Shown here: piece by piece, positions 2,393 to 59,218 of the stretch | Layout: each line of letters opens with the position of its first letter | Numbering within the stretch: position 1 is the first letter of the stretch | DNA from: a virus | IMG/VR virus record: IMGVR_UViG_3300042731_005759 | Coordinates: 1 to 64,000 of that record | DNA length: 64,000 bases | Direction: 5' to 3' (one strand) | Translations under genes and position numbers: made by a program | The notes under the pieces: model-generated | Told to the model about the DNA's origin: nothing | Seen by the model: the letters and a program-made list of their open reading frames with translations, nothing else | Databases searched by the model: none

Positions 2393-4411
2393 TTAAATCA
2401 GGGGTAAATTTTCAGAAAATTTCAATTCCCCTTCGGAAAATTTAATTTCTATAGGTTCTTTCTCGTTTATATTACCTAATAAAATCTGATCACTAATAAA
2501 ATCTTCACATAGATTTTGTATGATTCTTCTTATAGGTCTAGCACCATATTCTTCTTCAGAATTTCTATTTAAAATTTCTATTGAAACCGAAGAATGGAAT
2601 TTAATATTATAATTCTTTTCTTTTAGTCTTGATTTCAATTTATTCATTTCTATAGTCACAATTCTTTTCAGAGACTTTTCTTCTAATTTATTGAATACAA
2701 CGATATCATCAACTCTATTCAAAAACTCAGGACTAAATTGTTGTTTTAGTGATTTTTTAATAATTGAATCTTTAACCTTTTCTTGATTGGTTTCGTCTGA
2801 AAAACCTACTCCCGCACCAAAATCAGAAACTTTCTTAGCACCTATATTAGATGTCATGATAATAAGTGTATTGGAGAAGTTAACTTTTCTTCCGAATGAA
2901 TCGGTTAGGTGACCTTCATCTAATATTTGAAGTAGAAGATTAAATACATCCTTATGTGCCTTTTCTATCTCATCGAACAATACAACAGAAAAAGGATTAT
3001 TTTTAATTTTTTCAGTTAGTTGTCCACCCTCATCATATCCAACATATCCTGGTGGAGAACCAATTAGTTTGGAGACATTATGTTTTTCCATAAATTCACT
3101 CATATCAACACGAATGATTTTTTCAGGATCACCGAATAATGTGTCTGCAAGTGTTTTCGCTAAATAAGTTTTACCTACACCTGTTGACCCTAAAAACATA
3201 AAAGATCCGATAGGTTTGTTTGCACCACGTACTCCGACTCTATTTCTTCTAATGGCCTTTGCAATTTTACTAACCGCATCGTCTTGACCAATAACTCTTT
3301 TAGTAATATTCTTTTCTAAAGAGAGTAAGTTTTTAGACTCAGTCGAATCGAGTTTATTAATCGGTACACCAACGGTGTCACTGATCATCTCATAAACATC
3401 ATCAACGTGGATGGGTTTTTTATTTAATTTCTGTTCGTTATTCCACTTTATCTTTTCCTGATCAAGTTTCTTTAATACTGATTTTTCTTGGTCTCTTAAG
3501 TTCGCGGCTAACTCATAATTTTGATCTTTTACGACTGCCAATTTTTGGAGTTTAATATCGTCTGCCTCTTTTTTAAGTTCTTCAATCGATTCAGGTACTT
3601 TAATACTTATTTTCTTTTCAGAACCTAACTCATCCAATATGTCAATTGCCTTATCAGGAAATTGTTTATCTGTAATATATCTTTTTGACAACATTACAAT
3701 GGTTTCAATAACATCTTTTGTGTAATTAACCCTATGATAGTCCTCATAAGAAGGTCTTAAGTTTTTAAGAATCTCAATGGTTTCATCGTATGTTGGTTCT
3801 TGTAAAATAATTTTTTGGAATCTTCTTACCAAAGCACCATCTTTCTCAATGTTCTTTTTAAATTCATCAAAAGTTGTTGCTCCTATACATTGAATTTCTC
3901 CTCTTGCGAGTGCGGGTTTCAAAATATTCGCGGCATCCATAGAACCTGACGCGTTTCCTGCACCAACCATAGTATGTAGTTCATCAATAAAAACAATTAC
4001 ATTAGGTGCATCTTCTAACTCAGTTAATATCGCCTTAATTCTCTCTTCAAATTGTCCTCTATATTTTGTTCCTGCAACCAAAGCAGTCAAATCAAGAGCC
4101 ATGATTCTCTTATCAAGGAGATTGGTTGGGCATGTACCCTCAGTAATCATTAACGCTAGTTTTTCAACAAGTGCGGATTTACCAACACCCGCATCACCAA
4201 CTATAACCACATTATTTTTCTTTTTTCGAGACAAGATTCGTGATATTCTCATTACCTCTTTGTCTCTACCTATAATAGGGTCTATCCTACCTTCTTGGGC
4301 TAATCTTGTTAAATCTCTTGAAAAATTATCGAGAACGGGTGTATTACTATTCTTCTTACCTTTTCTCTGTGATTGTTTCTCTTCGTTATCTTCGTAAAAA
4401 TCTATTGGCAT
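2393..4411 (-). CDS. ClpC-like AAA+ protein unfoldase lacking the N domain
   Basis: A 672-residue protein from the chosen ATG at 4411; an upstream ATG at 4450 would add 13 unlikely residues. It has two AAA+ modules. D1 has Walker A GDAGVGKS (72-79), Walker B FIDELH (141-146) and an arginine finger near 197. D2 has Walker A GSTGVGKT (408-415), DEIEK (480-484) and the pore-loop signature GYVGY near 455-459. Between them lies a UVR-type coiled segment (about 295-315, KDQNYELAANLRDQEK), characteristic of ClpC rather than ClpB. A VGF tripeptide at 535-537 sits where ClpC/ClpA carry the ClpP-docking loop. The double Clp_N domain that normally binds adaptors is absent. It probably works with host ClpP, or remodels proteins alone. 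It is transcribed away from a small heat-shock gene. Confidence 0.9.
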   Translation of the reverse strand: MPIDFYEDNEEKQSQRKGKKNSNTPVLDNFSRDLTRLAQEGRIDPIIGRDKEVMRISRILSRKKKNNVVIVGDAGVGKSALVEKLALMITEGTCPTNLLDKRIMALDLTALVAGTKYRGQFEERIKAILTELEDAPNVIVFIDELHTMVGAGNASGSMDAANILKPALARGEIQCIGATTFDEFKKNIEKDGALVRRFQKIILQEPTYDETIEILKNLRPSYEDYHRVNYTKDVIETIVMLSKRYITDKQFPDKAIDILDELGSEKKISIKVPESIEELKKEADDIKLQKLAVVKDQNYELAANLRDQEKSVLKKLDQEKIKWNNEQKLNKKPIHVDDVYEMISDTVGVPINKLDSTESKNLLSLEKNITKRVIGQDDAVSKIAKAIRRNRVGVRGANKPIGSFMFLGSTGVGKTYLAKTLADTLFGDPEKIIRVDMSEFMEKHNVSKLIGSPPGYVGYDEGGQLTEKIKNNPFSVVLFDEIEKAHKDVFNLLLQILDEGHLTDSFGRKVNFSNTLIIMTSNIGAKKVSDFGAGVGFSDETNQEKVKDSIIKKSLKQQFSPEFLNRVDDIVVFNKLEEKSLKRIVTIEMNKLKSRLKEKNYNIKFHSSVSIEILNRNSEEEYGARPIRRIIQNLCEDFISDQILLGNINEKEPIEIKFSEGELKFSENLPLI

Positions 4412-9551: not shown

Positions 9552-11339
9552 ATGGACAAAAACAAACTCATACAATTAAAGGAATACGCAAAGATCATGA
9601 AGGACACTCCTTATGCCCTTAAAACGTATTTGACAACGTATGATAATACACAAAAGAAATATGTTCCATTAGAGTTATTTCCTGATCAAGTACAGTTGAT
9701 CCAAGACTATGATAACTATAATGAAAATATAACACGTAAGTATAGACAGGCGGGTGTTTCTACAGTAACCGCTGCGTGGATATCAAAGAAGATACAAACT
9801 GCGAGTCCCGATAACCCTGAGAGGGTTCTAATTATTGCAAACAAAAGAGATACTGCAATAGAAATGGCGAATAAAATTCGTGGTTTCTTAGATCAATGGC
9901 CCGAATGGATCAATGTTGGGTTCTCTGTAGACAAAAACTCCGAAAGTAGATATAGGATGAATAATGGTTGTGAGGTTAAGGCCGTTGCAACTTCCGCAGA
10001 TGCACTTCGTGGTTATACACCTACGGTTCTTGTATTTGATGAGGCGGCATATATCGAAGCGGGTGAAGATTTTTGGGCTGCGTGTATGGCCTCCCTATCT
10101 ACAGGTGGTAAAGTTATTCTTATATCCACACCAAACGGGTATGACCCAATCTATTATGGTGTATATGATCAAGCTCTACGTGGTATGAATGATTTTCATA
10201 TTACCGACCTTAGGTGGTTTAAAGATCCAAGATACGCAAGTGACCTTAAATGGTTAAGGGTTGATGATATAATTCATTATATGTTGAACAGAGAACAATA
10301 TAATGATAAGGACATTACCTTGGAAGAAGGTTGGGAGAACTATGTAACATTGATGGATCAAGGTTATAAACCATATTCTACTTGGTTTGAGAATATGGCA
10401 AAGAAATTCAAATATGATAAAAGAAAAATCGCACAGGAATTGGAGTGTGACTTCCTCGGTTCTGGTGACGGTGTTATCCCTAACAGTGTACAAGATAGGA
10501 TAAGAAAGACCATGATTAAAGACCCGATTGAAAAATATATGCAGGGTACTATGTGGTTATGGAAAGAACCTGTTGAGGGTCATAGGTATATCATGGGAGT
10601 TGACGTTTCAAGAGGTGATAGTGCGGATGCGTCTTCGATATGTGTAATTGATTTTGATGAAAGGGAACAAGTTGCGGAATATGTCGGTAAGATACCACCC
10701 GACGATTTAGCATCAATAGTTTATAAATGGGGTGTTCTATATAAAGCATTTGTCGCAACAGATATTACGGGTGGTATGGGTATTGCCACTTCAAGAAAAT
10801 TACAAGAGATGGGATATAAAGATCAATATGTTGACGGTATAACATCCAATAATATGTGGCAATCATGGAAAAAATCACAAGAAAAAATACCAGGTATAAA
10901 TTTTAATAATAAAAGAACACAGATAGTCGCAAGTTTTGAGGAACAGTTAAGACATGGTTTTGTTGTTAGATCTTCAAGACTACTTAATGAACTAAACACT
11001 TTTGTTTATATAAATGGTAGACCTAATCACATGAAAGGTGCCCATGATGACGCTATTATGGCGATGGCAATTGCAATGTATGTTGGAGATATCTGTTTCA
11101 CTCAATTAAAAAGAAACGATAATGCCAACAAATCCATGTTAGATTCTTGGACTCTTTCAGAGAGAACTTACGATACTAATAAATCATTTTATTCCTATGG
11201 GACGGCATTTGATGCGGTTGGCTCTATGGCGATGGACAAAAATGCACCACCGTCTCATCCAACAACAAATCAAAATATGACCATGGAACAATATAAAGAA
11301 TATATGTGGTTATTTGGTAGTAGAACTAAACAGGTTTAA
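9552..11339 (+). CDS. 17: Large terminase subunit (gp17-like)
   Basis: A 595-residue DNA-packaging motor, close to T4 gp17 in length (610). The ATPase domain has a variant P-loop, RKYRQAGVST (62-71), in which the usual lysine before Ser/Thr is replaced by Val. Walker B is VLVFDEA (159-165) and the coupling motif is near ILISTPNG. The RNase-H-fold nuclease domain begins near 355 (GVDVSRGDSADASS), with further acidic residues in TDITGGMG and HDDAIMAMA. It cuts concatemeric DNA and pumps it through the portal encoded next. The small terminase was not found in the window. The first ATG fits the 5-base spacing from the promoter motif. Confidence 0.95.
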   Translation: MDKNKLIQLKEYAKIMKDTPYALKTYLTTYDNTQKKYVPLELFPDQVQLIQDYDNYNENITRKYRQAGVSTVTAAWISKKIQTASPDNPERVLIIANKRDTAIEMANKIRGFLDQWPEWINVGFSVDKNSESRYRMNNGCEVKAVATSADALRGYTPTVLVFDEAAYIEAGEDFWAACMASLSTGGKVILISTPNGYDPIYYGVYDQALRGMNDFHITDLRWFKDPRYASDLKWLRVDDIIHYMLNREQYNDKDITLEEGWENYVTLMDQGYKPYSTWFENMAKKFKYDKRKIAQELECDFLGSGDGVIPNSVQDRIRKTMIKDPIEKYMQGTMWLWKEPVEGHRYIMGVDVSRGDSADASSICVIDFDEREQVAEYVGKIPPDDLASIVYKWGVLYKAFVATDITGGMGIATSRKLQEMGYKDQYVDGITSNNMWQSWKKSQEKIPGINFNNKRTQIVASFEEQLRHGFVVRSSRLLNELNTFVYINGRPNHMKGAHDDAIMAMAIAMYVGDICFTQLKRNDNANKSMLDSWTLSERTYDTNKSFYSYGTAFDAVGSMAMDKNAPPSHPTTNQNMTMEQYKEYMWLFGSRTKQV

Positions 11340-11374
11340 AAATTGAAAAAAATTTCTTATATTATAATGTATAA

Positions 11375-11384
11375 TATTTATTAG
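11375..11384 (+). promoter_or_regulatory. Late-promoter motif TATTTATTAG, 4 bases before portal ATG
   Basis: TATTTAT (11375-11381) is followed by TAGT and then ATG at 11386. This is one of eight cases with exactly four bases between motif and start codon. Confidence 0.6.
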
Positions 11385-11385
11385 T

Positions 11386-13218
11386 ATGGCTAAACAAAAT
11401 CTAACAGTATATCAAAGACTTACAAAAGTATTCGGTTTTACGGCAGAAAGACCGACATCACCTCCTCAGTATAAATTTGATAGAGATAAACTTTTAAAAA
11501 CTGATAGTAGAGAGGACTACGAAAGAGAGATGTTGCAACAGCAACAGAGTCAGTATATTGCCGATAAGTGGACAAAATTAGATCAGTCTCTTTATAATCA
11601 ATCAGTTTATTATGAACCAAATAGATTAGCCGCATATTATGATTACGAATCAATGGAATTTACTCCTGAAATTTCTGCCGCATTAGACATATACTCAGAG
11701 GAATCAACAACTCTATCAGAGAAAGGAGAAATATTGACCATTTACTCAGAATCAAAAAGAGTAAAAAACATCTTATCTGATTTATTTTATAATATTCTTG
11801 ATATCAATACCAACTTACAAATGTGGTGTAGAGGTACGTCAAAGTATGGTGATAACTTTGTTTATTTGAAAATAGATCCAAGTAAGGGAGTTATTGGTTG
11901 TCAACAACTACCAAATATAGAAATCGAAAGACATGAAGGTGCGGCATCACAAGTACATAAGGCGGAAAACCCAAGTGGAGTAAAGTTACCAAGTAGAGAA
12001 CTTAGATTTACATGGAAAAATAAAGACATGGAGTTCCAAGCATGGGAGGTGGCACACTTTAGATTATTAGGTGACGATAGAAAATTACCATACGGTACAT
12101 CAATGTTAGATAAAGTTAGACGTATTTGGAAACAATTACTTCTTGCAGAAGACGCGATGTTAATATATAGAACGTCAAGAGCACCCGAAAGAAGAGTCTT
12201 TAAAGTATTCGTGGGTAACATGGATGATAAAGACATCGAATCATATGTACAACGTATCGCAAACAAATTTAAAAGAGATTCTATTGTAGACCCTAAAAAT
12301 GGTCAAGTAGATATGAGATACAATCAAATGGCGGTCGACCAGGATTATTTTATTCCTGTTAGAGATCCATCTCAAACTTCACCAATTGAAACTCTACCAG
12401 GGGCACAGAACTTAGGTGAGATTGCAGATATTGAATATATCCAAAAGAAATTATTAGCCGCACTTAGAATTCCAAAGGCGTTTTTAGGTTTTGAAGAAAT
12501 TGTGGGTGAAGGTAAGAGTTTGGCATTAATGGATATAAGATTTGCCAGAACAATTAATAGGATCCAAAAATCTCTAATACAAGAATTAAATAAAATTGCA
12601 TTAGTTCATTTATATCTTTTAGGTTTGGAGGATGAATTAGATAATTTCACATTATCACTAACTAATCCTTCCGCACAATCTGATCTTCTTAGAATTGAAC
12701 AATGGAAAGAAAAGATTACTCTTTATAAAGATGCTACTTCGGACCAATCACAGATTGGAATACAACCTGTATCACATACATGGGCTAAGAAAAATATACT
12801 TGGTATGAGTGATAATGATGTTGTACTTGATTTACAACAACAAAGACTTGAAAGAGCACTTGGTGCAGAATTAGGTATCACACAAAATATAATTAAAAGA
12901 ACAGGTGTATTTGATGAGGTCGATAAAAAGTATGGAATACCTGAAGAAGAAAGACAAGCGATGGATGATAACATGGCACCCGCAGAAGGAGGTGGAGGAG
13001 GAGACGACTTCTTAGGTGGAGGAGGTAGTGATAGTGCACCCCCACCACCACCCGCAGATGCAGAACCCTTAGCGGAAGGTAAAAAGAGTAAGAAAAGTAA
13101 AATATTGGGAGAGTTAGGTGATGAAAAACTCGAATTTGATGATCTTTTTGATGTCAATAAGGCCCAAGAGAATATTTATGAAATAGAGAATAAATTAAAA
13201 GACATTATAAATGAGTAG
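11386..13218 (+). CDS. 20: Portal protein (gp20-like)
   Basis: A 610-residue portal vertex subunit (T4 gp20 has 524). The motif MEFTPEISAALDIYSEES near residue 90 and the following region are typical of T4-type portals. The central part (about 100-500) shows the portal core, including a KIDPSKGVIGCQQLPN strand region. The C-terminus is a low-complexity Gly/Pro/Asp extension (about 525-580, for example GGGGGDDFLGGGGSD) and then a helical end. Twelve subunits would form the ring at one capsid vertex through which terminase packages DNA. The order terminase-portal-protease-scaffold-capsid follows T4. Confidence 0.95.
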   Translation: MAKQNLTVYQRLTKVFGFTAERPTSPPQYKFDRDKLLKTDSREDYEREMLQQQQSQYIADKWTKLDQSLYNQSVYYEPNRLAAYYDYESMEFTPEISAALDIYSEESTTLSEKGEILTIYSESKRVKNILSDLFYNILDINTNLQMWCRGTSKYGDNFVYLKIDPSKGVIGCQQLPNIEIERHEGAASQVHKAENPSGVKLPSRELRFTWKNKDMEFQAWEVAHFRLLGDDRKLPYGTSMLDKVRRIWKQLLLAEDAMLIYRTSRAPERRVFKVFVGNMDDKDIESYVQRIANKFKRDSIVDPKNGQVDMRYNQMAVDQDYFIPVRDPSQTSPIETLPGAQNLGEIADIEYIQKKLLAALRIPKAFLGFEEIVGEGKSLALMDIRFARTINRIQKSLIQELNKIALVHLYLLGLEDELDNFTLSLTNPSAQSDLLRIEQWKEKITLYKDATSDQSQIGIQPVSHTWAKKNILGMSDNDVVLDLQQQRLERALGAELGITQNIIKRTGVFDEVDKKYGIPEEERQAMDDNMAPAEGGGGGDDFLGGGGSDSAPPPPPADAEPLAEGKKSKKSKILGELGDEKLEFDDLFDVNKAQENIYEIENKLKDIINE

Positions 13219-13220
13219 AT

Positions 13221-13964
13221 ATGGCATCATTTGGAACAATAAAAAGTAAAATATTAGTTAAACTAACTGAGAGTTACGGTGGAGATAATTTTAAGGAGAA
13301 TTTGAATAATGTATTCAAACCTATAATGAATAACGATTCTTTAAAAGAACTATATTCTTTATATGAGGAAATCGAAACAATGACTTTTGAGGATAAAGAA
13401 ACCGCATCTATCTACGTAGATGAAATATCGAGTATATTAAAAACAAGATACGATCAAGTTAATGATACAATTCATGTGAGATTACTATCTGATATTAACG
13501 AACACCTAAAAGATGTTGAGTGTGAAACTAACGAATTATATGAGTGGTTAGATACACTTTCAAATCCTGATAAATTAGGTAATGTCTCTCACAAGGTAAA
13601 AGCAAAGAAAAAATTAGTTGAACACCTTACAACACCAAAGACCATTGAAAAACTCACATTTAAATCAGTAAATGAAAATTTATTGAATTCTGTGTTAGTA
13701 AATAACTTTAATGTGTCTTATGATGAAAAACTTACAGAAAATGAAAAAGAGAGGTTAAAGACATACATGTCTTTGGCTGGTGATGACTTGAGTACAAAAT
13801 TTTCTGAACTAAAGGAATCGGTTTATAATAAGTTAGATACGTTGGTCGAAAACGAAAAAGATTTCACCGAAAAATCTAAACAAGTCAAAAGTGAAGTAGA
13901 TCAAATGGAAGTTAATCGTTTTAATCTATTTAGATTAGAGGATTTATCCCAAGGTCTTTCCTAA
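13221..13964 (+). CDS. Prohead-core-position protein, unknown family
   Basis: A 247-residue charged, mostly helical protein beginning two bases after the portal stop and ending at a terminator. In T4 the small prohead-core proteins gp67 and gp68 lie between portal and protease, so this gene occupies that position. No sequence match to them can be shown by eye. It contains several long helices with Lys/Glu patterning (for example LKESVYNKLDTLVENEKDF). A prohead-core or scaffolding role is inferred from position only. Confidence 0.55.
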   Translation: MASFGTIKSKILVKLTESYGGDNFKENLNNVFKPIMNNDSLKELYSLYEEIETMTFEDKETASIYVDEISSILKTRYDQVNDTIHVRLLSDINEHLKDVECETNELYEWLDTLSNPDKLGNVSHKVKAKKKLVEHLTTPKTIEKLTFKSVNENLLNSVLVNNFNVSYDEKLTENEKERLKTYMSLAGDDLSTKFSELKESVYNKLDTLVENEKDFTEKSKQVKSEVDQMEVNRFNLFRLEDLSQGLS

Positions 13965-13970
13965 ATAAAT

Positions 13971-13998
13971 AAAGTGTCCAATCGGACACTTTTTTTTT
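13971..13998. terminator. Bidirectional terminator between head genes and rpsU
   Basis: AAAGTGTCC (13971-13979) pairs with GGACACTTT (13984-13992) around AATC, followed by a T run on the plus strand and an A run on the other side. The stop codon of the reverse-strand rpsU gene lies in the T run, so one hairpin serves both convergent genes. Confidence 0.9.
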
Positions 13999-14194
13999 AC
14001 TTTTCTTCTTCGGTTCTTATTCTTTGAATGTATATGGCTTTTTGTTTTTGTAGTCTTTTCTTTACTGAAGGTTTTGTGTATTGTTTTCTTTCCCTAAGTT
14101 GATTTAACTGTTTTGTGCGACGAACCTTACTACGGAGTTTTTTTATCGCCGCTTCTATTCCACCTTTATCTTTCTTAACCTTTATTATTAACAT
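13997..14194 (-). CDS. rpsU: Ribosomal protein bS21
   Basis: A 65-residue very basic protein beginning MLIIKVKKDKGGIEAAIKKL. It carries the family signature RERKQYTKPSVKKRLQKQKA, a one-to-one fit to bacterial S21 with its helical Lys/Arg-rich body and the conserved KPS segment. S21 binds the 30S platform near the 3' end of 16S rRNA and takes part in initiation. In Bacteroidota, bS21 is part of the pocket that sequesters the anti-Shine-Dalgarno tail (established knowledge). Phage-encoded S21 is known from pelagiphage HTVC008M and from huge phages. Here it is inserted in reverse within the head operon with its own TATTTAT motif, so late expression is likely. No Shine-Dalgarno sequence precedes it. 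Confidence 0.93.
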   Translation of the reverse strand: MLIIKVKKDKGGIEAAIKKLRSKVRRTKQLNQLRERKQYTKPSVKKRLQKQKAIYIQRIRTEEEK

Positions 14195-14292: not shown

Positions 14293-14718
14293 ATGAAATT
14301 AGGGAGATTCATCCCATTAGGTAACTACAGGGACGTAAAAATAGGTTATGGAACAATTAACCACAAAGATCTTAAAACCATTTATTTGAAGCTTAATTCA
14401 TGGTTGGAACCTGAAGACAGTGATTTAGACTTCGATTCAATAGTAAGATCTACAAGAAATAAAATAAAAAAACTTATATACAATTTAGGGTTTGATATCT
14501 TCAGACCCGAGAGTATCGTTGACTTAGATATCCGAACAAAAGGAATTAGTAAAGATAAGAGATCTTTTATGGATCTTGAAATAACTTTATATGTCCTAAA
14601 AGATATCGATATTAAGAGTGACAAGTTAAAACAGGATATGAATTCTTTGATTAGAGTGATCATTGATGAGTGTTTGGACAACGATTTATTATTTAATTTT
14701 AATAAAAAGAAAAAATAA
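14293..14718 (+). CDS. Conserved phage protein, unknown function
   Basis: A 141-residue protein beginning MKLGRFIPLGNYRDVKIGYG. It alternates beta-type and charged helical segments and ends in a Lys run. No motif or family is recognised. It lies between the rpsU insertion and the prohead protease. No TATTTAT motif is seen directly upstream; a short frame (ATGGACAATTATAATG) precedes the chosen ATG. It may be a head-assembly protein by position. Confidence 0.55.
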   Translation: MKLGRFIPLGNYRDVKIGYGTINHKDLKTIYLKLNSWLEPEDSDLDFDSIVRSTRNKIKKLIYNLGFDIFRPESIVDLDIRTKGISKDKRSFMDLEITLYVLKDIDIKSDKLKQDMNSLIRVIIDECLDNDLLFNFNKKKK

Positions 14719-14759: not shown

Positions 14760-15443
14760 ATGAAAGTATTAGGTCCAAACGAAACAGGTAGAGGTATTCT
14801 TATTGAATATGATGCAGGTCATATATCACCTGAAGAGAATAAGAAAGTAATAAGAGAAATGAAAGGTATTGATTTCTCAGATGATATTGTACTTTACGCT
14901 GTTCTACAAAAATTCGATACTCCAAATAAAAACGGGAGAATATATCCTGAAAAACTTCTTAAAAGAGAAGTAGAAAAATATCAGACTGTTATTGGTAAAG
15001 GTTCTGCGTTAAATGAACTAAACCACCCTTCATCATCACTTATCGATTTAGATAGAGTATCTCACACAATAGAAGAAACTTGGTGGGACGGTAAGATATT
15101 AATGGGAAAAATTAAACTATTACTTTCACCAGGTTGGAAAAAATCAGGTATCGTTAGTACAAAGGGTGATCAGGCCGCGATGTTACTCATGAATGGGGTA
15201 ACATTAGGTATCTCTTCAAGAGGTGTAGGATCACTTAAATCAGAAAAAGGTCAAAACATAGTACAGGAAGACTTTGAATTAGTTTGTTTTGACTTAGTTT
15301 CTTCTCCTTCTACACCAGGAGCATACATATTTAAGGACATAGAAGATAGAGATCAGTATGAGGAATCTGTTGAAGAACAACCTGTTGTAGATGAAAAAAT
15401 CTCAAGACTTATGGGTAAGTTAGATAGTTTTCTATCTAGGTGA
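14760..15443 (+). CDS. 21: Prohead core protease (gp21-like, peptidase family S80)
   Basis: A 227-residue serine protease that matures the T4-type prohead by cleaving scaffold and capsid proteins; T4 gp21 has 212 residues. The likely catalytic residues are H89 in LNELNHPSSS, a serine in GISSRGVGS (S152 or S153) and an acidic partner near D178 (CFDLVSSPSTPGA). The FDTPNKNGRIYP segment (52-63) is also typical of this family. The gene stands directly before the scaffold gene, as in T4. The C-terminal 30 residues look like a flexible tail. Confidence 0.92.
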   Translation: MKVLGPNETGRGILIEYDAGHISPEENKKVIREMKGIDFSDDIVLYAVLQKFDTPNKNGRIYPEKLLKREVEKYQTVIGKGSALNELNHPSSSLIDLDRVSHTIEETWWDGKILMGKIKLLLSPGWKKSGIVSTKGDQAAMLLMNGVTLGISSRGVGSLKSEKGQNIVQEDFELVCFDLVSSPSTPGAYIFKDIEDRDQYEESVEEQPVVDEKISRLMGKLDSFLSR

Positions 15444-16973: not shown

Positions 16974-18677
16974 ATGGGAGCATTATTAGAAAGTGGTATG
17001 GTTGGTAACATCGGGTTAAAACACCTTAGAGTTATCAAAGAAGATACCATCAAAAAATGGGATGACCTCGGGTTCTTGGAAGGACTTGAAGGACACCAAA
17101 AAGACAATATCGCTCAATTATATGAGAACCAAGCTTCACACTTGATTAACGAAGCTGCAGTATCTGACGCATCTGGGTCATTTGAAACTGTAGTATTCCC
17201 AATCATTAGAAGAGTATTCTCTAAATTGTTAGCGAACGACATTGTTTCTGTACAAGCTATGAACTTACCAATTGGTAAACTATTCTACTTTGTACCTAAA
17301 ATTCAGGATAGAAATTCTGGAGCACACAGAGAGCCATACGGGATGCCAGGTAACGCAGATGCGTCTGACGCAGGTTACGGAGCAAACCAAAGAAACCTTT
17401 ACGATAGATTCTACGAAGAAGGTGACGCGGCTTCTGAAGGATTATTTGACTACTCAAAAGGTGAATTCAGTGAAATTACTTTAACTGCACACGCGTTTGT
17501 TACATTCGCTGACGGTATCGCAACTGAATCAACTGTAGCATTAGCGGCTAACCAAGCAAGTGTAATTATCGTTGCAACTGGTTTCACTAAAGCAGGTCAA
17601 GGTAAAATCGCAGGTCCTAACGGTAACGAAATGGACTCTGAAGAATTCTTAGCTTCATTAGAAGTTAAAGACGGATCTGATTCATTACCTTTTAACATTG
17701 TAACTCAAAAATACGGTAAAGGTATCGTTGAGTACGGACAAAAAGGAACAGGTGTTACAGGTAAATTCCCTGACATCTGTGATGAAGAAGGTAAAATTTA
17801 TATTAACGTAGACTTACAGACTTATTCTGCAAGTTCAGGTTTCGCAGATGGTGGATCAGGTAAAACTCCTGGTGACTACGATTTAGTGTACAGACAGTAT
17901 AGTTCACTTGAATTCGAAGACGCTATCGGTGAGGTATCTTTTGATTTAGAGTCAGTAACAGTTTCTGTAACTGAAAGAAAATTAAGAGCTAGCTGGTCTC
18001 CTGAATTGGCACAAGACGTATCTGCTTTCCACAACATCGACGCTGAGGCTGAGTTAACTGCATTGTTATCTGAGCAAATCGCGGCTGAGGTTGATAGAGA
18101 GATCTTAAGAGACTTAAGAAAAGGTGCAGCTTGGAACTTGAAGTGGGACTACAATGAGTGGAAATATGGTGGAGCGAACAACGCTACATTACAAGGTTAC
18201 ACTCAAAAGGATTGGAACCAAACGTTAATCACTAAGATTAACCAATTATCGGCTCAAATCCATAAAACTACACTTAGAGGTGGTGCTAACTGGATCGTTG
18301 TTTCTTCAGAAGTTTCTGCAGTATTCGATGACTTAGAGTACTTCCACGTATCTAACGCAGGTGCAGAACAAGATCAGTACAACATGGGTATTGAGAAAGT
18401 TGGTACTTTAGCAGGTAGATATCAAGTGTATAGAGATCCTTACTTCCCAGCAGGGAAAGTTTTAGTAGGTCACAAAGGTAAGTCTTTATTAGACGCGGGT
18501 TACATTTACGCACCGTATGTACCTTTACAACTTACTCCAACTATGTATAACCCATTCAACTTTACACCAATCAAAGGTATCATGACCAGATACGCTAAGA
18601 AAATGGTTAACAACAGATACTTTGGTGTAATTAATGTACAAGGTTTACAAACATTCAACTTGGATACTTTAAGATAA
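16974..18677 (+). CDS. 23: Major capsid protein (gp23-like)
   Basis: A 567-residue HK97-fold capsid subunit (T4 gp23 has 521). It begins MGALLESGMVGNIGLKHLRV, followed by LYENQASHLINEA and a FETVVFPIIRRVFSKLLAND motif (about 65-84), all typical of T4-type capsid proteins. The C-terminal part (MTRYAKKMVNNRYFGVINVQ) is also conserved. The N-terminal 60-70 residues are probably removed by the gp21-like protease during maturation, as in T4. Its codon choice favours C-ending and other apparently optimal codons more than its neighbours, fitting high expression. The gene ends at a strong terminator. Confidence 0.96.
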   Translation: MGALLESGMVGNIGLKHLRVIKEDTIKKWDDLGFLEGLEGHQKDNIAQLYENQASHLINEAAVSDASGSFETVVFPIIRRVFSKLLANDIVSVQAMNLPIGKLFYFVPKIQDRNSGAHREPYGMPGNADASDAGYGANQRNLYDRFYEEGDAASEGLFDYSKGEFSEITLTAHAFVTFADGIATESTVALAANQASVIIVATGFTKAGQGKIAGPNGNEMDSEEFLASLEVKDGSDSLPFNIVTQKYGKGIVEYGQKGTGVTGKFPDICDEEGKIYINVDLQTYSASSGFADGGSGKTPGDYDLVYRQYSSLEFEDAIGEVSFDLESVTVSVTERKLRASWSPELAQDVSAFHNIDAEAELTALLSEQIAAEVDREILRDLRKGAAWNLKWDYNEWKYGGANNATLQGYTQKDWNQTLITKINQLSAQIHKTTLRGGANWIVVSSEVSAVFDDLEYFHVSNAGAEQDQYNMGIEKVGTLAGRYQVYRDPYFPAGKVLVGHKGKSLLDAGYIYAPYVPLQLTPTMYNPFNFTPIKGIMTRYAKKMVNNRYFGVINVQGLQTFNLDTLR

Positions 18678-18733: not shown

Positions 18734-18760
18734 ATGCCTTATTTTTCGTATACTTTATAC

Positions 18761-19201
18761 ATGTTGTGGAAAGAATATTTTATCAGTATTGCAGAACAAG
18801 TAAAGGAAAAGTCTAAAGACGTTAAAACACAAATAGGTTGTGTTATAGTGGGGGAAGACAAAGAAATCCTTACAACGGGTTATAATTCGTTTCCAAGAGG
18901 TTTAAATGATCATGATACAACAAGACAAGAAAGACCCGAGAAATATTATTGGTTTGAACATGCGGAGAGAAACGCAATCTATAACGCAGCAAGAATTGGG
19001 GTGTCTCTAAAAAGATCAACAGCATATCTCACATCAGGATTACCTTGTATGGATTGTGCACGTGCTTTAGTACAATCAGGGGTAACTAAAATAGTTTGTA
19101 AGGAATATTGTACCACTAAGAATCCTAGTAAGTGGAAAGAAAATCAAGAAAGGTCTCTTATTTTACTTTCGGAGTGTGGGGTAGAAGTCGAGTTTTATTA
19201 A
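18761..19201 (+). CDS. dCMP deaminase
   Basis: A 146-residue enzyme converting dCMP to dUMP, feeding dTTP synthesis. The zinc-binding motifs are EHAERNAI (His and catalytic Glu) and PCMDCARAL (two Cys), the standard cytidine/deoxycytidylate deaminase pair. An upstream in-frame ATG at 18734 would add nine residues but lies in the T run of the capsid-gene terminator; the ATG at 18761 gives the usual MLWKEYFISIAEQV start. It pairs metabolically with the dUTPase at 30961, both supplying dUMP. Its 3' end overlaps a convergent gene by 44 bases. Confidence 0.93.
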   Translation: MLWKEYFISIAEQVKEKSKDVKTQIGCVIVGEDKEILTTGYNSFPRGLNDHDTTRQERPEKYYWFEHAERNAIYNAARIGVSLKRSTAYLTSGLPCMDCARALVQSGVTKIVCKEYCTTKNPSKWKENQERSLILLSECGVEVEFY

Positions 19202-32395: not shown

Positions 32396-33625
32396 TTAAT
32401 TGTTCTTTATTGTTTTTAAAAATTCAACTCGGTCTTTACACACTTTCTTTAAAGAGTAAGTGTCTTTGACTGTTTCATATAATTTTTCACCTAAATCTTC
32501 CCTAAGTGAAGGGTTTTCGATTAGTCTTTTCATTTGTTGGAACCATTGTTTATGATTCTTTCTTGTTTGAACTAATAATGAGTTTCCATTTTCTACTCTA
32601 TTACCATACTCGAAACTATCAACTAAATCAATTAGATAAGGATTTTCTGCCGTTGCAATAAGAGGTTTTTTATGGAAACCCGCTTCGATAACTTTGAGTT
32701 GGGACTTATACCCATTGAAGTCACTTTTTACAAGTGGTGCCAATGATACATCAAAGTAATTGTAATTTGTTGCGTATTTGTTCAAATCTAAAGTCCATCT
32801 TCTAACATATGGTTGATTAAATTCACCGTCGTAGGATTCTCTTTTCCATGTCTTTAAAAAGTTTACATACTCAGGTTGTAGTGATTTATAATCGTTAGTG
32901 AAAATACTTTCATATTTCGACCACACAGTTTCTTCAGGTCTAATAGGTCTTTCTCTTACTTCCCCCGTTGTTTTGTTATATTCTCTCATATTACCTCTCA
33001 GATCGAAACCACACAAAACAAACTGTACTTTGTCTTTATATTGTTGGTGTATTTGACTAATACCACCTTTCATTAATTCAATATCATATAAATGAGATGA
33101 ACCTCCTAACCAACCAAATCTAACTTTATCAGATTCTATGGTGTTTGGTTTGAATTGACTTTCTTCTTCGTTTACGGCATTAGGGAATACATGAATTCTA
33201 TCATGATTGACTAATTTTTTTAGTGCATCTCTATAAAGTGAAGTTGTACAAGTAATATAATCTGCCAATTTCAACATTTCCGTTCTCTTACCAGCAAGAT
33301 TCTTCTGTTTAAAGGTCTCGTACATAGGATGTCTATGATCTACCCTCCAATAATCATCGGTATCCATGATAACAGTAATACCATTTGATTTTAACCATTT
33401 GATTCTTTTTATATTATCCTCGTGAGATGACTTATGAATAAAAGTGTGGAAGATTACCACGTCATATGTAGAAAAGTATTCATCCTCGTTTGGTACGTTC
33501 AGGTTCAAATCAACATGTACATCAGATGAATGTTTATCACCAATAAATGTAAATGGATCTATGATTCTGAATTTACCTACACCATGTGTGTCCGAGGGTA
33601 TAGCTAATACTTTTACTTTTGACAT
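32396..33625 (-). CDS. Glycosyltransferase, GT-B fold
   Basis: A 409-residue protein. The N-terminal part has IPSDTHGVGKFRIIDPFTFI, and VIMDTDDYWRVDHRHP (a DTDDYW motif common in phage GT-B enzymes). VRFGWLGGSSHLYDIELMKG starts the donor domain, and YKSQLKVIEAGFHKKPLIAT holds the Glu of the EX7E-type motif. It is cytoplasmic and likely adds a sugar from an activated donor. With the genes at 27500 and 28285 it makes three glycosyltransferases in a 6-kb span. Confidence 0.85.
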   Translation of the reverse strand: MSKVKVLAIPSDTHGVGKFRIIDPFTFIGDKHSSDVHVDLNLNVPNEDEYFSTYDVVIFHTFIHKSSHEDNIKRIKWLKSNGITVIMDTDDYWRVDHRHPMYETFKQKNLAGKRTEMLKLADYITCTTSLYRDALKKLVNHDRIHVFPNAVNEEESQFKPNTIESDKVRFGWLGGSSHLYDIELMKGGISQIHQQYKDKVQFVLCGFDLRGNMREYNKTTGEVRERPIRPEETVWSKYESIFTNDYKSLQPEYVNFLKTWKRESYDGEFNQPYVRRWTLDLNKYATNYNYFDVSLAPLVKSDFNGYKSQLKVIEAGFHKKPLIATAENPYLIDLVDSFEYGNRVENGNSLLVQTRKNHKQWFQQMKRLIENPSLREDLGEKLYETVKDTYSLKKVCKDRVEFLKTIKNN

Positions 33626-45325: not shown

Positions 45326-45335
45326 ATAAATTAAG

Positions 45336-45342
45336 TATTTAT
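45336..45342 (+). promoter_or_regulatory. Late-promoter motif, 4 bases before ATG at 45347
   Basis: TATTTAT followed by TGAT and ATG. Confidence 0.6.
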
Positions 45343-45346
45343 TGAT

Positions 45347-59073: not shown

Positions 59074-59206
59074 ACAAAATCAACTAACAGAAATACTTTT
59101 CCTTATCAGAAGAGGGTTCACTCATCGTGATATTCTCGAAATGCCCATTTATTTGAGAAAATACTACGTCGAACGACTTGTAGAAGTCGAAAAAAAGAAC
59201 GACTAA
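59036..59206 (+). CDS. gp51-like small baseplate assembly protein, no ATG start
   Basis: A 56-residue frame, +1 relative to gp26, opening with TTG at 59036 (would read MGWSFFVLSTEYRQNQLTEI) and continuing LFLIRRGFTHRDILEMPIYL, then RKYYVERLVEVEKKND. The GFTH...MP.(Y/N)LRK(F/Y)Y pattern is conserved in a small protein that follows gp26-like genes in aquatic T4-like phages, in the position of T4 gp51. The only ATG is at residue 36 (59141), after the conserved part starts. Translation must begin at TTG or by +1 frameshift from gp26. The stop lies one base before the next late motif. Confidence 0.7.
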   Translation: MGWSFFVLSTEYRQNQLTEILFLIRRGFTHRDILEMPIYLRKYYVERLVEVEKKND

Positions 59207-59207
59207 G

Positions 59208-59214
59208 TATTTAT
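59208..59214 (+). promoter_or_regulatory. Late-promoter motif, 4 bases before ATG at 59219
   Basis: TATTTAT followed by CAGT and ATG. Confidence 0.6.
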
Positions 59215-59218
59215 CAGT

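Follow-up and report, generated by a model that had tools for sequence, protein, structure and literature searches.

A bS21 gene lying on the reverse strand among the head genes was described in myophages of Bacteroidetes by Chen et al. (2022, ISME Commun; PMC9723584). In these phages, the bS21 homologues are highly transcribed late in infection, together with the capsid genes, and the head region that contains bS21 is not a single transcript. These authors pointed out the conservation of Tyr54 and the presence of a Clp protease, placed the changed N-terminal part of the protein over the mRNA, and proposed that the phage protein substitutes for its host counterpart in the ribosome. Their main text makes no mention of promoters, leaderless genes or autoregulation. 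The bS21 carried by the Pelagibacter phage HTVC008M is likewise expected in host ribosomes (Mizuno et al. 2019; PMC6375957), and the same work, as relayed by Chen et al., had a different phage bS21 incorporated into E. coli ribosomes.

On the host side, bS21 is essential in F. johnsoniae and required for efficient initiation on mRNAs without a Shine-Dalgarno (SD) sequence (McNutt et al. 2023; PMC9976891). Most mRNAs of Flavobacteriaceae are SD-less, and rpsU is the main known exception. Its SD works as a sensor, in that ribosomes lacking bS21 make more bS21. When F. johnsoniae bS21 loses its C-terminus or Tyr54, fewer initiation complexes form on SD-less mRNA and rpsU is translated more. McNutt et al. 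also raised, as a speculation, a protease against host bS21 encoded by phages of this kind. Among open-licence papers, theirs was the sole direct treatment we found that joins rpsU, phage, Bacteroidota and Shine-Dalgarno.

A reversed bS21 gene in a T4-type head cluster

The window, that is the whole stretch of 64,000 nucleotides analysed here, covers positions 1 to 64,000 of an IMG/VR record of 176,087 bases (IMGVR_UViG_3300042731_005759), which is perhaps partial. The features that matter for the argument are the following; the ClpP gene of the phage is given by its place in G000.

2393–4411, minus strand: ClpC-like double-AAA+ unfoldase (Pfam AAA_2, AAA_lid_9 and ClpB_D2-small)
9552–11339, plus strand: large terminase, TerL (PHROG 2, E 1e-38)
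11386–13218, plus strand: T4-type portal protein (Pfam PF07230, E 2e-77)
13221–13964, plus strand: uncharacterised 247-aa gene, convergent neighbour straight after the portal gene, in a conserved position
13971–13992, both strands: hairpin between the two convergent genes (plus-strand form -12.3 kcal/mol, z -5.7)
13997–14194, minus strand: phage bS21 gene, 65 aa
14207–14213, minus strand: TATTTAT promoter-like element, an enriched motif, inside the conserved block CAAATTTTTCTAGTATATTTATTA and ending 12 nt before the bS21 ATG
14293–14718, plus strand: uncharacterised 141-aa gene, divergent neighbour of bS21, present wherever a reversed bS21 and its flank are complete
14760–15443, plus strand: prohead protease, S77 family (Pfam PF03420, E 2e-23)
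from 15525, plus strand: 472-aa acidic protein, in the scaffold position by its place in the head cluster
16974–18677, plus strand: major capsid protein, gp23 family (Pfam PF07068, E 5e-75)
G000, 131717–132244, plus strand: ClpP protease (AASMG serine motif and candidate His and Asp motifs)

The minus-strand frame at 13997–14194 starts with ATG, stops with TAA and is translated as MLIIKVKKDKGGIEAAIKKLRSKVRRTKQLNQLRERKQYTKPSVKKRLQKQKAIYIQRIRTEEEK. It scores above the cut-offs of both Pfam PF01165 (40.9 bits, E 1.7e-10; cut-off 27) and NCBIfam TIGR00030 (30.6 bits; cut-off 28.95), and its PHROG match is PHROG 21469, 'ribosomal protein S21'. The nearest solved chains by sequence are 7jil_z (E 3e-9), which is the bS21 of F. 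johnsoniae, and 9i5v_9 (E 5e-9), while E. coli bS21 is reached at E 0.24. A reading made from the sequence only had called the 65-residue product bS21, and the Pfam, NCBIfam, PHROG and PDB-chain matches agree on this. The 176,087-base record holds one bS21 only. Its tRNA genes come down to one tRNA-Glu, and a search of it for a ribosome hibernation factor found none.

The plus-strand genes on either side of bS21 form a T4-type head cluster. bS21 converges on the 13221 gene across the hairpin, which has the form of a strong intrinsic terminator when read on the plus strand (with a T run) and of a weaker one on the minus strand, and it is separated by 98 bp from the divergent 14293 gene; its promoter-like element lies inside those 98 bp. 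The reverse placement between portal and protease genes, as given in the sequence-only reading, is correct; bS21 adjoins neither of them, being separated from each by an uncharacterised gene. The novelty claimed for this placement did not hold up, since Chen et al. had published it, and the idea that the phage protein replaces host bS21 and biases initiation was not new either, both having been proposed in the same paper.

Pfam and PHROG searches returned no family for 13221–13964 or for 14293–14718. For the latter, the phage record collection contains no homologue, and the AlphaFold model (pLDDT 68.5, modest confidence) has no significant match in the PDB and a single significant viral match, A0A8S5L9A5, an uncharacterised protein. 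From its position and co-occurrence, 14293–14718 is likely the counterpart of 'bS21_CN' (fam498) of Chen et al. Elsewhere in the window, a dCMP deaminase gene (18734–19201) directly follows the capsid gene, with a terminator-like stem before it, and 32396–33625, within a block of minus-strand genes, has a glycosyltransferase-family match (PHROG 7162).

By gene order and protein sequence, the window phage is a member of the reverse-strand bS21 phages of Chen et al. It has in common with them a reversed bS21 between two hypothetical genes in a terminase-portal-protease-capsid cluster, an aromatic residue at the Tyr54 site, a Clp protease in the genome and a Flavobacteriia-like bS21. The phages of Chen et al. 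are from freshwater and measure 293–331 kb when complete, whereas the present record, perhaps partial, has 176 kb.

Conservation of the locus and divergence of the protein

IMG/VR was probed separately with bS21, with the 14293 neighbour and with the protease, giving 160 viral hits, some on shared contigs. In the protease-anchored set, bS21 is found in 77 loci overall and missing from 3, two of which are at contig ends; the reversed gene is kept in 76 of the 77 loci whose flanking genes are present. All 24 loci found via the neighbour gene have a reversed bS21, and the bS21 probe likewise shows a conserved locus and orientation. These phages are not all close to one another: the TerL of the window phage and the TerL of one other reversed-bS21 group share only 56–58% identity. 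Compared with the homologue in L003, the bS21 gene has a dN of 0.095 and a dS of 1.49, hence a dN/dS of ~0.06, an approximate value for a single short gene with dS near saturation. The gene is under strong purifying selection. One relative, L234, has kept both flanking genes, with 112 bp between them (1920–2032), no bS21 frame and a terminator-like hairpin still in place. This is a natural loss of bS21, which means that the gene is not strictly required.

In a second arrangement (L039, L042–L057), bS21 is on the head-gene strand, after the prohead protease, and in all 12 distinct proteins of this type an Arg replaces the aromatic residue that stacks on the anti-SD. Within one subgroup of relatives (L149–L165), the stretch between the homologue of the 13221 gene and bS21 contains, before a terminator-like stem, a conserved TTCCTTTACGGC(G/A)GCTACCTTAGAGGT or close variants of it.

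The C-terminal part of the protein is of the host type. Tyr55 of the window bS21, within a C-terminus of the Bacteroidota type, is the equivalent of F. johnsoniae Tyr54, and the anti-SD-stacking position is aromatic in all 73 distinct proteins of the reversed type (Tyr in 72, His in 1), compared with Tyr in 79/79 Bacteroidota hosts. As in F. johnsoniae (PMC9976891; 7JIL), a C-terminal helix carries the stacking Tyr, and the same site on the ribosome is predicted. The N-terminal half is consistently different. Host Pro5, Gly-Glu-Asn 10–12 and Phe24 are lost in reversed-type phage bS21, and Val24 (70/73), Lys28 (66/73) and Gln29 (70/73) are typical of the phage proteins. The sites at which the phages of Chen et al. 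diverge from host bS21 (Arg21, Phe23, Asp25 and Thr28) diverge here as well: the columns of F. johnsoniae Arg21, Phe23 and Thr28 hold Ser22, Val24 and Gln29 in the window protein, and the acidic residue after Phe23 (Asp25 in Chen et al., Asp24 by our count) is Arg25.

In a tree of 168 rows and 64 columns, with many forks unresolved, deeper ones included, a branch with 98/93 support separates the hosts and four huge-phage proteins from every phage protein of the reversed type, and the bS21 of the window phage makes up a small group of its own with its nearest relatives. A recent capture of bS21 from a host is rejected on account of this branch, across which the hosts lie from all reversed-type phage proteins. 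The host rows of the tree were collected with a seed alignment containing Bacteroidota sequences, which sets its scope to this phylum; the phylum is therefore read from the ranking of PDB chains and from the C-terminal residues rather than from the tree. The best 80 cellular relatives of the window bS21 are all from Bacteroidota, with Flavobacteriaceae at the top (53–58% identity), so that no clustering with an unrelated phylum was seen. From two features, this bS21 similarity and the SD-less genes, the host is probably a Flavobacteriaceae-like member of the Bacteroidota, and probably a marine one.

Start-site signals in the phage and in its putative hosts

SD strength was computed as the energy of the duplex that the 29 nt before a gene form with the 16S 3' tail GGAUCACCUCCUUUCU. 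By this measure, all 44 Flavobacteriaceae rpsU genes examined have an extended SD, none of them weaker than -17.5 kcal/mol (median -19.3), whereas the upstreams of 84 distinct phage bS21 genes have a median of -1.0 and a strongest value of -7.4, with none below -8 kcal/mol. The window gene, at -1.0 kcal/mol, has no host-type extended SD. This sets it apart from F. johnsoniae rpsU, with its extended autoregulatory SD, as does its different N-terminal helix. None of 19 Prevotellaceae rpsU genes is below -13 kcal/mol. In L248, a 735-kb huge phage outside the reversed group, a AAAGGAGG SD (-12.1 kcal/mol) precedes bS21, around 2501.

The phage genes as a whole had been read as devoid of SD sequences, and indeed their median pairing with the anti-SD (-3.2 kcal/mol) equals that of shuffled upstreams (-3.1). 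Twenty-one genes are below -8 kcal/mol versus 7 in shuffles, so a minority may have some SD-like pairing; the strongest pairing in the window phage, at gene 18734, comes from a terminator-like stem. To judge from these upstream sequences, the absence of an SD at phage bS21 would follow from a general SD-less habit, with no need for special selection and with the same consequence. Phage bS21 genes that have no SD are predicted to be uncoupled from the autoregulatory control of the host.

What the upstream regions do contain is an AT-rich motif. TATTTAT occurs within 60 nt upstream of 40 of 141 window-phage genes, against 1.8 expected from its frequency in the genome; of 41 copies, 15 stop 4–5 nt short of an ATG. 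Among the genes that carry it are terminase, portal, protease, scaffold-position and tail genes. Copies ending 4–5 nt before starts are seen, for instance, at 11369–11385, 45330–45346 and 59200–59218. The spacing of the motif makes it look like a phage promoter that would give leaderless or near-leaderless mRNAs. The 'late motif' noticed at bS21 is this element, present 12 nt upstream, common to structural genes and promoter-like in sequence. TATATTT precedes 59 of the 72 distinct reversed bS21 genes (8.0 in shuffles), and TAnnTTTG, the -7 promoter consensus of Bacteroidota, precedes 29 of them (2.3 in shuffles). The AT-rich element is thus probably bS21's own promoter, and the leader would be just a few nucleotides long. 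An individual bS21 promoter agrees with the finding of Chen et al. that the head region is not one transcript.

Role of the phage protein and competing explanations

We consider it probable, with some reserve, that the phage gene is functional and long resident, that it acts late in infection, and that its product serves as bS21 in host ribosomes. Most likely, the phage protein would enter the host 30S in place of host bS21, or besides it. Tyr55 would keep the 3' tail of 16S rRNA, with its anti-SD, tucked away, and ribosomes would thereby stay able to translate the SD-less structural mRNAs of the phage when protein output peaks; that the protein is made late here, and that it would favour phage mRNAs at all, are extrapolations. 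As a whole, replacement is partly supported, by the protein family, the C-terminal residues, the locus, the selection on the gene, the promoter-like element and the absent SD. A preference for SD-less mRNA would give no selectivity between phage and host, because the mRNAs of a Flavobacteriaceae host are mostly SD-less too. Since rpsU is the main known SD-bearing exception, host rpsU is the more specific predicted target. In addition, the strong divergence of the N-terminal helix means that the protein perhaps does not act exactly as host bS21 does.

This last point also bears on a simpler explanation, which is possible if somewhat unlikely: late in infection, or under ribosome stress, bS21 would run short and the phage copy would top it up, leaving the choice of mRNAs unchanged. 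The resemblance of its C-terminal residues to those of host bS21 fits such a supplement, as does the fact that F. johnsoniae cannot do without bS21 for growth or for efficient SD-less initiation. On the other hand, N-terminal changes as consistent as those at Val24, Lys28 and Gln29 (66–70 of 73 proteins) suggest an altered function.

Replacement by the phage protein could also reinforce itself, which would extend the preferred explanation rather than oppose it. By hiding the anti-SD, phage bS21 would leave host rpsU poorly translated and host bS21 would fall; rpsU translation is expected to drop on phage-loaded ribosomes because it relies on ribosomes without bS21. The SD-less, short-leader phage gene would escape this control, and phage ClpCP would perhaps degrade host bS21. 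We hold this for unlikely and propose it tentatively. The autoregulatory mechanism is established in F. johnsoniae (McNutt et al. 2023), and the contrast between rpsU (44/44 with an extended SD) and phage bS21 (0/84 below -8 kcal/mol) is what it calls for, but phage genes are generally SD-less, so the missing SD requires no special selection, and the host is perhaps from a family that, like Prevotellaceae, has no rpsU SD. McNutt et al. themselves suggest another outcome, in which autoregulation is a counter-defence of the host.

The proteolytic part of this proposal draws on the phage-encoded ClpC-like unfoldase and ClpP. The unfoldase starts at its first AAA module, and a candidate ClpP-docking loop, VGF, was read in it by eye. 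It lies about 10 kb from bS21 in the window phage and several relatives, and was found in all 10 related reversed-bS21 contigs tested; it is absent from the one same-strand-bS21 contig tested, which is possibly partial. The two largest of the related reversed-bS21 contigs also have ClpP; the remaining ones are fragments. A part for the unfoldase in the removal of host bS21 is speculative, the role of Clp being putative as to its substrates. In its full form, the proposal would amount to a one-way switch to phage-marked ribosomes by way of host bS21 autoregulation, with phage ClpCP possibly clearing host bS21, and in that form we find it doubtful.

A role away from the ribosome seems very improbable. 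The strict linkage of bS21 with the 14293–14718 gene and its position among head genes would suit a protein packaged in the head, as was also raised by Chen et al., or an assembly partner of this neighbour. The phage protein has nevertheless kept its ribosome-contact residues, the neighbour persists in L234 although bS21 is gone, and its predicted fold offers no more of a lead than one significant match to an uncharacterised viral protein. That the gene is a neutral, recently acquired host gene without a role can practically be dismissed: we found no evidence in favour, and its place is conserved across highly diverged phages, its dN/dS is ~0.06 and it is split from cellular Bacteroidota with 98/93 support.

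Relative to the searchable open-licence papers, replacement by the phage protein is here complemented with the SD contrast between host and phage, with bS21's own promoter-like element, and with the ClpC-like unfoldase and ClpP of this phage. No viral ribosomal protein is commoner than phage bS21, which may give rise to specialised ribosomes. Bacteroidota are among the few systems where it is understood how bS21 affects the choice of mRNA. The strong SD of host rpsU, set against the SD-less phage bS21, leads to a concrete prediction that would be testable with existing F. johnsoniae reporters.
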